From: Mesorhizobium sp. WSM3859
GTDB taxonomy: Bacteria; Pseudomonadota; Alphaproteobacteria; Rhizobiales; Rhizobiaceae
Length of the DNA stretch: 64,000 nucleotides
Direction: 5' to 3'
Assembly: GCF_002295065.1 (NCBI RefSeq)
Contig: NZ_NSGG01000006.1
Span: 248,001-312,000 of the forward strand
Within the stretch, counting starts at the first letter, position 1; each line of letters starts with the position of its first letter. The notes below the pieces were generated by a model that saw nothing but the letters and a program-made list of their open reading frames with translations, was not told where the DNA came from and did no database searches. This document shows positions 2,136 to 4,440 of the stretch, piece by piece. Position numbers and translations under genes: made by a program.

Positions 2136-3251
2136 ATGCGTGTCGGCTGCCCCAAGGAAATCAAGAACCATGAATATCGCGTCGGCCTGACGCCCGGCTC
2201 GGTCCGCGAATATGTCGCGCATGGCCACGAAGTGCTGGTCGAGACGGGCGCCGGCGCCGGCATCGGCGCCGACGACAACGCTTATCGCGCCGCGGGCGCC
2301 ATCATCGCGAAGACGGCGGCCGACGTGTTCGCCAAGTCGGACATGATCGTCAAGGTCAAGGAGCCGCAGCCCAATGAATGGGTACAACTGCGCGACGGCC
2401 AGATCCTCTACACCTACCTGCACCTTGCTCCGGATCCGGAGCAGACCAAGGGTCTTCTCGCTTCGGGCGTCACTGCCGTTGCCTATGAGACCGTGACCGA
2501 CGATCGCGGCGGCCTGCCGCTGCTCGCGCCGATGTCGGAAGTCGCCGGACGCCTGTCGATCCAGGCCGGCGCCACCGCGCTGCAGAAGGCCAATGGCGGC
2601 CGCGGCGTGCTGCTTGGCGGCGTGCCCGGCGTGCTGCCCGGCAAGGTCACCGTGCTGGGCGGCGGCGTCGTCGGCCTGCATGCGGCCAAGATGGCGGCCG
2701 GCCTCGGCGCCGACGTCACCATCATCGACCGCTCGATCCCGCGCCTGCGCCAGCTCGACGACATTTTTGGCGGCCGCGTGCATACGCGCTATTCGACCGT
2801 AGAGGCGCTGGAAGAGGAATGCTTCTCGGCCGACGTCGTCATCGGCGCCGTGCTGATCCCGGGCGCCGCCGCGCCCAAGCTCGTGACCCGCGAAATGCTT
2901 TCCGGCATGAAGAAAGGCTCGGTGCTGGTCGACGTCGCGATCGACCAGGGCGGCTGCTTCGAGACCTCGCATGCCACGACCCATGCCGATCCGACCTATG
3001 AGGTCGACGGCGTTATCCACTATTGCGTCGCCAACATGCCCGGCGCCGTGCCGGTCACTTCGGCGCACGCGCTCAACAACGCGACACTGCACTATGGCCT
3101 GCAGCTCGCCGACAAGGGCCTCAAGGCGCTGGTCGACGACCATCACCTGCGCAACGGCCTCAATGTCCATAAGGGCAAGATCACCAACCGCGCTGTTGCC
3201 GAGGCGCTCGGCTACGAAATGGTCGAACCGAAGGCGGTGCTTGCCGCCTGA
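2136..3251 (+). CDS. ald: Alanine dehydrogenase
   Basis: Ald reversibly deaminates L-alanine to pyruvate and ammonium with NAD+. The 371-residue length matches the family. The N-terminus [17 protein letters not shown] is diagnostic, with the substrate-contacting Arg and the early Lys in place. The Rossmann motif [15 protein letters not shown] lies near residues 170-185, and the [17 protein letters not shown] segment near the C-terminus is typical. The gene is divergent from an Lrp-type regulator and ends at a strong terminator. In rhizobia Ald activity links alanine use and nitrogen metabolism. Confidence 0.96.
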
Positions 3252-3277: not shown

Positions 3278-3308
3278 GCCCGCCGGGTAACTCCGGCGGG
3301 CTTTTTTC
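3278..3308 (+). terminator. Intrinsic terminator of ald
   Basis: A 9-bp stem GCCCGCCGG/CCGGCGGGC with a six-base loop is followed by a run of T, 26 bases after the ald stop. Confidence 0.9.
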
Positions 3309-3380
3309 TTGGCCTGGAGCAATTTCAGAAAGAACGCGGAGCGGCCTCTGCGGCATTGCGCGCTCAATTTCCTGGAAGCA

Positions 3381-3412
3381 AAAAGCAAAAAAGCGGAGCA
3401 AAAGCCCCGCTT
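3381..3412 (-). terminator. Intrinsic terminator on the minus strand in a gene-free spacer
   Basis: Read on the minus strand, AAGCGGGGC and GCTCCGCTT pair around TTTT and are followed by a long T tract. No protein gene ends here; the reading frames entering from the right have no stop before the hairpin. It therefore suggests a short non-coding transcript that starts somewhere in 3450-3550. Confidence 0.6.
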
Positions 3413-3480
3413 CCTCGATGTTGCGATCTGCCGCCGGTCCATCCGCGGTCGACAAATCATCAACCATTACTTCTTAGCAA
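3390..3480 (-). ncRNA. Possible small RNA ending at the minus-strand terminator
   Basis: This is inferred only from the strong terminator at its 3' end and the lack of any gene it could serve. The 5' end and promoter are not identifiable, and I recognise no known RNA family. Confidence 0.25.
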
Positions 3481-3589
3481 AGGAGTACGACGAGAATACG
3501 ACAGTCTTGACGGAGTTCGATCCTGTCTTTCGGCGGTTATGCGTCCTTGTGTGAAATGCTTCACATTCGCCGGGCGGGAAAGATGCCTA

Positions 3590-3716
3590 GACACGCAATG
3601 CTACTGGCGGTCTGTGCTGCTTGCCGGTTTCGGACAATTCCGGCCTGGCAGCACTGGCCGACAGCTTCTGTCAGACCCTCCAACGGCCCGCCTGACCATC
3701 GGCGGGCTTCTTTTTG
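3590..3716 (+). ncRNA. Candidate structured small RNA with three-way junction and terminator
   Basis: The sequence folds neatly by eye. GGTCT (3609-3613) pairs with AGACC (3673-3677) and closes a junction. Inside are hairpin 1, GTGCTGC (3614-3620) with GCAGCAC (3648-3654) plus GCCGG (3623-3627) with CCGGC (3640-3644), and hairpin 2, GACAG (3660-3664) with CTGTC (3668-3672). A terminator follows at once: GCCCGCC (3686-3692) with GGCGGGC (3701-3707), then TTCTTTTT. No protein gene lies on this strand between ald and the terminator. The 5' end is uncertain. A CTTGAC box lies at 3506-3511, but no good -10 element follows it. It lacks the conserved SRP RNA loop sequence and is too short for RNase P RNA. 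Confidence 0.5.
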
Positions 3717-3750
3717 GGTCATGCCGGTCTGGGATCGGGCCGGTTTGGGA

Positions 3751-4218
3751 TCAGGCCCGCTCGATGCGGCATTGATAGCAATTGTTCCGGGCCGAGCGGA
3801 CATGGATGTCGGCGATGTCTTCGCGCCCAAGCAGTGTTGTCGCGCGGGCTGTGATGTCGCCCGTCGGCGTGACCGCGCCGCTGCCATAGACGATGCGGTC
3901 GTCCTTGCCATAACCACGCACGATATAGTCGCTGCTTGCGAGCATCTCCGGCAGAGCATCCCCATCGGCGGCGCGTTCGCATTCCTCGGCGTGCAGGAAG
4001 ATCGGGCCTGTCTCGGCATAGGGCTGCAGTTCCGGAAACGGTCGGTAGGCCACGATCAGGTAGCCGTCGCCCGCAGCGACGTTCTTCATGCAATGCCTGC
4101 AGGGCACGCCGTCGCCGTCGGAAATCCGGTGTTCCGGGGCGAGGCCATAGGCATCAGGCCCTCCCCGCTGCAAGGCGCGCACGGCTTCGGTCGGCAAGGC
4201 TTTGAACTGGATGCTCAT
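3751..4218 (-). CDS. DUF1203 family protein
   Basis: This 155-residue cytoplasmic protein resembles the DUF1203 family, which has a conserved pattern of Cys and His residues. Here these are PCRHCMKN near residue 40, FLHAEEC near residue 75 and NCYQCR near the C-terminus, where metal or cofactor binding is conceivable but unproven. The start at 4218 was chosen over a longer upstream frame because MSIQFKALPTE is the typical beginning. The function is unknown. It sits alone between the candidate small RNA and a 105-bp repeat. Confidence 0.7.
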   Translation of the reverse strand: MSIQFKALPTEAVRALQRGGPDAYGLAPEHRISDGDGVPCRHCMKNVAAGDGYLIVAYRPFPELQPYAETGPIFLHAEECERAADGDALPEMLASSDYIVRGYGKDDRIVYGSGAVTPTGDITARATTLLGREDIADIHVRSARNNCYQCRIERA

Positions 4219-4285
4219 GGCAAATCTCCGGTGTCGATGTCCGGAAATTATGCCTTGGCGGCAGTGCCTCCCACCCGATTCCTGC

Positions 4286-4390
4286 CTAGAGCGTTTCACC
4301 GTTTCACGGAAACGGCGAACCGCTCTAACTCTTTGTTTTTACGCAATTCCGGACGGAAACCCGCTCACACTTTTCCTGGAATTGCTCTAG
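4286..4390. repeat. 105-bp palindromic-ended intergenic repeat (TAGAGCG type)
   Basis: The element begins CTAGAGCGTTTCACCG and ends TGGAATTGCTCTAG, so its ends are inverted copies of CTAGAGC. An inner hairpin pairs AGAGCG and CGCTCT sequences. I recall elements of this kind being widespread in Mesorhizobium spacers, but only this one full copy is in the window. Confidence 0.6.
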
Positions 4391-4394
4391 CGGC

Positions 4395-4440
4395 GCGCAC
4401 ATGAAGAGCCCGGCTGCTTTGCACAACCGGGCCCTCGACC
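4395..4440 (-). terminator. Possible terminator downstream of the OmpA-family pseudogene
   Basis: On the minus strand a CCCGG...CCGGG stem with a loop of about 13 bases precedes CTCTTC. The T run is weak, so this is only a possible terminator. Confidence 0.3.

Follow-up and report, generated by a model that had tools for sequence, protein, structure and literature searches.

What occupies the spacer behind a presumptive alanine dehydrogenase gene in Mesorhizobium sp. WSM3859, where the plus strand folds extensively and ends in a terminator-like hairpin? We addressed this question by computational analysis of a 64,000-nucleotide stretch of that genome (the window), together with related genomes. 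What we find there is most likely an independent small RNA (sRNA) gene of ∼117 nt, located in the spacer between ald and a convergent gene for a DUF1203 protein (Table 1). Our preferred reading, to which we assign a probability of roughly 0.6, is that this gene encodes a cAMP/CRP-activated sRNA that probably acts in trans, and that its regulator is most likely the CRP-family protein encoded at C33:174262.

Table 1. Features of the ald-DUF1203 spacer and its surroundings, with the gene for the candidate regulator
Feature	Position	Strand	Basis or remark
ald (alanine dehydrogenase), upstream neighbor; name presumed	2136-3251	+	Open reading frame; relatives
Terminator of ald itself	3278-3301	+	Terminator pattern scan
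Second sRNA-like gene, separate from the plus-strand RNA	3384-3466	-	Own terminator (pattern scan); ends set by eye
Palindrome TGTGAAATGCTTCACA, perfect TGTGA-N6-TCACA CRP-type operator	3550-3565		Sequence
Extended -10-like element TGc-CTAGAC	3584-3592	+	20 nt from palindrome to base 3586
Predicted sRNA, ∼117 nt	3599-3715	+	Start, -10 box plus 7 nt; end, T run; both predicted
5' hairpin domain, variable (long form)	3604-3664	+	Compensatory changes in inner stem; shorter or almost absent in some relatives
Conserved GCTTCTGTC	3664-3672	+	Of 53 distinct homologues, 44 have it exactly and 49 have CTTC(C/T)GTC
Linker AGACCCTCCAAC, 5' of terminator	3673-3684	+	Unpaired in the window fold; CCAAC conserved
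Rho-independent terminator GCCCGCC-TGACCATC-GGCGGGC-TTCTTTTT	3686-3715	+	Pattern scan; alignments A2 and A3
DUF1203 gene, convergent, 3' neighbor	3751-4218	-	Pfam PF06718, E 6.7e-37; start codon picked by eye
CRP-family protein gene, beside a nucleotide cyclase gene	C33:174262, ∼77 kb from the sRNA gene		cNMP_binding and Crp helix-turn-helix domains

A predicted sRNA with its own terminator

From its sequence, we take the upstream open reading frame to be ald. Beyond it, the original prediction had described by eye a structured RNA followed by a terminator, and each of its parts was found in place. GGTCT (3609 to 3613) and AGACC (3673 to 3677) have a long hairpin between them, GACAG-CTT-CTGTC occupies positions 3660 to 3672, and a pattern scan listed the GCCCGCC-N8-GGCGGGC terminator with the T run that follows it. 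The scan returned five terminator-like sites between 3250 and 4500, compared with 1.4 ± 1.3 in shuffled sequence, with the sRNA terminator contributing two overlapping entries. The claim that the nested pairing exceeds chance was borne out by folding: shuffled versions of the region from 3590 to 3720 gave -45.4 ± 3.6 kcal/mol and the native sequence -63 (z = -4.93), a value matched by none of 200 shuffles. For the predicted transcript alone, z was -3.56, again unmatched in 200 shuffles; trimming off the terminator (3599 to 3684) left a z of -3.03, which 3 of 200 shuffles equaled or bettered. Fold z scores for ten homologues ranged from -2.6 to -6.8.

The RNA had also been said to match no known family. 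In keeping with this, a search of the whole window against Rfam yielded no family at its gathering score. At a loose E-value, C4, mir-499, and a beta-proteobacterial RNA overlapped the sRNA within the region searched (3400 to 3800), all at chance level. We rejected the best of these subthreshold matches, C4 antisense RNA (RF01695) at 3599 to 3669, which scored 16.5 bits (E = 1.6) against a gathering score of 45.

The promoter carries a conserved CRP-type operator

The original prediction did not include a promoter. We infer that the TGc-CTAGAC element is the -10 box of this gene. The gap of 20 nt between the palindrome and this -10-like box, with transcription predicted to start at 3599, therefore centers the palindrome at -41.5, which is the class II position in CRP promoters. 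The TGTGA-N6-TCACA operator thus lies, relative to a predicted start site, at an activating position, as would be expected of a CRP/cAMP-activated sRNA gene.

To gauge conservation of the operator, we relied on homologues picked from 54 loci by their 3' end alone, which gave 37 distinct sequences. TGTGAA-N4-TTCACA was found within 320 bp upstream in 36 of these 37, and the remaining homologue (L031) carried it with one mismatch. Promoter columns in alignment A3 (36 sequences) were free of gaps, with 20 nt from the palindrome to CCTAGA. In a set of 53 distinct homologues the palindrome was present in 52; this count is partly circular, because loose versions of the palindrome and the terminator were used to assemble the set, and 36 of 37 is the better count. 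Similarly, loci found with covariance model R1 are not independent evidence for the palindrome, since the model includes it. The -10 box differed from CTAGAC in 23 of the 53 distinct sequences (in 8 of these within the first two bases), and some divergent relatives had a weaker box at the same distance, such as CACAGA or CGCAAA.

Across the 6.6-Mb genome, TGTGA-N6-TCACA occurred at 7 sites, compared with 1 for the reversed control pattern. Of the other sites, one is flanked by a cyclase gene (Guanylate_cyc, PF00211) and a P450 gene, and another sits 0.2 to 0.4 kb upstream of the CRP-family gene listed in Table 1. A further site, at locus L131 near position 1501, is followed after 20 nt by a -10-like CTAATG and stands ∼350 nt upstream of a gene for an ABC solute-binding protein; the gap between this site and the gene could hold another RNA.

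The RNA is found in part of one genus

So far, the RNA is found in part of a single genus. Of 101 genomes searched by BLAST, 21 had a homologue; the window's own is among them, and all belong to the same genus. A pattern scan of named genomes returned 32 stretches, of which 30 were from Mesorhizobium and two from metagenome-assembled genomes named at a higher rank only. With R1, we detected matches in 55 of 146 genomes of the genus, again with the window's own among them. Across 247 genomes from 109 genera of the family, the two matches obtained were both in the same genus, and the 108 other genera sampled gave none; the filters used in both R1 scans lose some weak matches. Rescanning 24 of the 91 genus genomes without a match under looser filters gave a best E-value of 0.049.

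To follow gain and loss, we mapped presence of the RNA onto a tree built from 53 distinct ald sequences, 32 from loci that have the RNA and 21 from loci that lack it; the divergent loci L085 to L098 were left out. Presence changed 4 times on this tree, compared with 16.7 times for shuffled labels, and none of 500 shuffles was as low. Given these few changes, the gene looks like a compact unit that is either present or absent and has been gained or lost a few times.

A CRP-family protein beside a cyclase gene is the most likely regulator

The best match among solved structures to the CRP-family protein encoded at C33:174262 was 7pza, and the next best chain was 4cyd, which we take to be GlxR. 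Its recognition helix, ATRESVNK, aligns with ASRETVNK of 4cyd. In the available portions of the respective sources, 7pza is identified as Clr of Sinorhizobium meliloti (PMC10127613) and the GlxR operator is given as TGTGANNTANNTCACA (PMC4254451). Thus, judging from sequence, the genome encodes a CRP-family regulator with a cyclic-nucleotide domain and a matching helix, as a CRP/cAMP-activated sRNA would require.

We then compared the occurrence of this protein with that of the RNA in 20 genomes of the genus selected by us, half of which (10) have the RNA. The protein was present at 88 to 96% identity in all 10 RNA-bearing genomes. Among the RNA-lacking genomes, one (G118) encoded it at 82% identity and another (G005) encoded a 58% relative, while the remaining 8 had nothing above 32%. 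The association gave a Fisher p of 1.2e-4, a value that ignores kinship and refers to genomes of our own choosing. In G118, looser filters returned no convincing RNA (best E, 0.39). Because the two genes lie ∼77 to 161 kb apart in the window's genome and in all 10 RNA-bearing genomes, part of this link may be plain synteny. The RNA and the regulator may share a clade and nothing more, given how seldom RNA presence changes on the ald tree.

A different member of the CRP/FNR family could serve as the activator of a CRP-regulated sRNA, and the genome has candidates, with 23 Crp helix-turn-helix matches, 11 of them above the cut-off. We regard this alternative as unlikely. Among the best nine of the 23 (L136 to L144), an R-E-x-V-N-K helix occurs only in L143, which is the C33:174262 protein and the one that co-occurs with the RNA. 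The other helices of these nine are NETVSR or IETVSR in two proteins, presumably of the FNR/FixK type, HVNR, HMNR, or HTNK in five, and HRPSVS in one.

Locus L159 (G000:C33:167500-176500) brings together a gene for a TPR-repeat cyclase, a P450 gene, the CRP-family regulator, and two TGTGA-N6-TCACA sites, and is a candidate for a compact cAMP circuit. The P450 gene of this cluster has a weak C-terminal Dyp-peroxidase match.

The spacer RNA and its convergent neighbor

Only 35 nt separate the end of the RNA from the stop codon of the oppositely oriented DUF1203 gene. The RNA might instead be a cis element, either an antisense partner of the DUF1203 mRNA in its 3' untranslated region or a mere transcription barrier between ald and DUF1203. 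The arrangement recurs: among 14 further RNA-bearing loci that we fetched, DUF1203 lay downstream in all 10 that matched ald (369 to 611 nt away), and the same was true of 21 of 21 among the loci listed (386 to 629 nt away). However, 7 of the 21 RNA-lacking ald loci have DUF1203 adjoining ald with no RNA between them (spacers of 228 to 252 nt), ald has a terminator of its own, and conservation of a CRP-type operator and of the terminator loop would be superfluous in a barrier. We therefore consider a role in cis quite unlikely and retain a CRP-activated sRNA, probably acting in trans, as the preferred reading.

A nearly frozen promoter and 3' end flank a variable body

Across the homologues, the gene is nearly frozen at its promoter and its 3' end, and it is the body of the sRNA that varies. 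With start and end predicted as in the window, all distinct transcripts but one are 70 to 131 nt long, and the shortest (70 to 71 nt) contain little besides the terminator. The exception, of 241 nt (L014, G003:C1), has an apparent inserted palindromic element in its 5' domain, with operator palindrome and 3' end intact. CCAAC-N-GCCCGCC was present in 52 of the 53 distinct homologues, a set whose choice was partly defined by the terminator. The terminator stem is invariant and its loop well conserved in both A2 and A3, two alignments for which the 3' end served as the selection criterion. The exact GCTTCTGTC was absent from 9 of the 53 distinct homologues and CTTCYGTC from 4, so this element cannot be the sole active part.

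A body this variable, with forms that amount to little more than a terminator, could suggest that the RNA has no function and consists of a terminator remnant beside a hairpin stable by chance. We find this very unlikely, since operator and spacing persist even where the bodies can hardly be aligned, and the inner stems show compensatory changes. That the stretch is instead a short conserved protein-coding gene is scarcely credible: two long open frames do cross it on the plus strand in the window (3356 to 3775 and 3547 to 4404), but lengths from the -10 box to the terminator fall in all three frames among the homologues (25, 16, and 11 of 52) and no start codon is conserved in the alignment, so that neither frame looks like a conserved gene, in agreement with the original prediction that no protein gene lies on this strand here.

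Several folds compete

The original prediction joined these stems in a three-way junction closed by GGTCT/AGACC. All of the elements are present, and a close relative (L004) does have the junction as its minimum-energy fold. However, the minimum-energy fold of the window transcript is a long hairpin closed by GGUC/GGCC with a separate GACAG/CUGUC hairpin. We counted pairs in 29 long-form homologues (alignment A2, 28 distinct). The outer three pairs of the closing helix were formed in 70% of cells, and its middle pair (U-A) was kept in 7 of the 29. The two inner pairs showed double changes in 3 sequences each, on account of which the junction may still form.

Comparing the two models gave no uniform preference. 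The hairpin model contains 7 pairs altered at both positions (4.0 ± 1.1 in shuffles, with 7 of 500 reaching that count), and the junction model contains 6 (4.5 ± 1.0 in shuffles, with 69 of 500 reaching it). The junction had more cells with a double change (23 versus 20) and a higher covariation score (0.176 versus 0.164), both measures lying above every shuffle for either model, and in each model 13 of the double-change cells come from an inner stem common to the two. RNAalifold on A2 chose yet another closing helix, pairing GGCGG with CUGUC, and for this reason we claim no single closing helix. When covariation was examined stem by stem, as had been suggested, the core of the 5' hairpin (the inner stem) was backed by compensatory changes in A2, the junction's closing helix gave a mixed result, and 7 of the 8 pairs in the terminator stem were constant, leaving that stem uninformative.

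Partition functions computed for the 53 distinct sequences (4 without CTTCYGTC were left unscored) showed that the partner of CUGUC differs by relative, being local, on the far 5' side, downstream, or mostly absent; several relatives thus have this arm base-paired and not exposed. Several short-form relatives (L015, L017, L020, L026, L037, and L053) fold into an outer helix with two small hairpins, and the topology first proposed therefore occurs but is not general. Following the pair counts and partition functions, we did not accept the three-way junction as the general fold; according to these models it is one of several competing folds.

A proposed mechanism and possible targets

Under the preferred reading, the class II activator at the palindrome (-41.5) would be a CRP-family protein that binds cAMP, and the most likely candidate is encoded beside the cyclase gene ∼77 kb away. 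Its binding would give rise to a ∼117-nt transcript that ends at 3715. The sRNA would then base-pair in trans with mRNAs, using GCUUCUGUC and the CCAAC linker of the conserved 3' part; this is the weakest step of the proposal. The 5' hairpin would serve mainly as a protecting and replaceable cap. As expected of a trans-acting sRNA, the gene has its own Rho-independent terminator with a U run, conserved in A2 and A3.

We searched for targets of the 3' part by looking for the 9-base sequence GACAGAAGC within 30 nt of an ATG in 6 genomes, which revealed no convincing target among the matches listed. Each genome gave 22 to 44 matches, compared with 5 to 12 for the reversed control, with codon usage a likely cause of the excess. 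One recurring match, when viewed by eye, was antisense to a coding sequence that looks to us like rpmG. The linker reads CCCUCCAAC in the window's clade and could in that form pair with Shine-Dalgarno sequences. Because other clades read UUUCCCAAC, such pairing is only a lead.

A broader reading, which we consider doubtful, is that the sRNA is confined to the genus and forms a single circuit with its own cAMP/CRP regulator, the two being acquired and lost jointly, and that the sRNA has a body almost free to change between a frozen promoter and a frozen 3' end. If this were true, the working part would be the 3' linker, the terminator stem, and the conserved loop rather than the 5' fold. An sRNA in which the operator and 3' end are conserved and the fold is not would also be a warning against sRNA searches that start from structure.

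Relation to known sRNAs

Rhizobia have many nucleotide cyclases and few known outputs of cAMP signaling. An sRNA under CRP control, for which a candidate regulator can be named, would be a direct and testable output of cAMP signaling in Mesorhizobium. The kind of gene is known, as CRP-activated sRNAs include one in a rhizobium, and the family is new in that no Rfam match reaches the gathering score. CyaR is an sRNA of E. coli that is activated by CRP. The RNA described here is like CyaR in having a Rho-independent terminator and, by prediction, in acting by base-pairing and in being activated by CRP, whereas it differs from CyaR in sequence and finds no Rfam family at the gathering score. In S. 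meliloti, the promoter activity of SMelC181 drops when the cAMP-binding CRP-family activator Clr is deleted, according to the available part of the report (PMC10127613). Both are rhizobial sRNA genes tied to a CRP-family activator, a tie that in the present case is predicted from sequence; the core motif given there for Clr is GTNNCNNNNGNNAC, in contrast to TGTGA-N6-TCACA here.

A literature search of limited scope found no paper naming the ald-DUF1203 sRNA locus. In the accessible part of a survey of M. huakuii 7653R (PMC5596092), MH_s11, MH_s16, and MH_s22 are transcribed in convergent chromosomal spacers and have no Rfam annotation. The best fit in size to the ∼117-nt sRNA is MH_s16 (123 nt, coordinates 2796947 to 2797069), from the same genus and likewise in a convergent spacer. 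We attempted to place the three by their distances from the TPP riboswitch and RNase P, using 7 other genomes, and the distances disagreed.

A second RNA-like gene on the minus strand

The same spacer holds a second sRNA-like gene on the minus strand, with a strongly conserved core, GACCGCGGATGGACCGGC; this gene, too, was no part of the original prediction. At this gene, ar35 (RF02346) was the top Rfam match in 8 of 8 related loci, at 27 to 34 bits, where the gathering score is 45; the window's own copy scored 13.1 bits (E = 4), also under that score. The gene is probably a diverged relative of ar35, as judged from these matches. Its core was kept in 6 of the 7 loci in which DUF1203 adjoins ald and the plus-strand RNA is missing. 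Just 5' of this gene, at 3486 to 3502 on the minus strand, lies a direct repeat with an 11-bp period, GTCGTA-N5-GTCGTA, and this repeat is partly conserved in relatives. The ChvI motif of S. meliloti, N-GCC-N8-GCC in the available text of PMC9731502, has the same 11-bp spacing.
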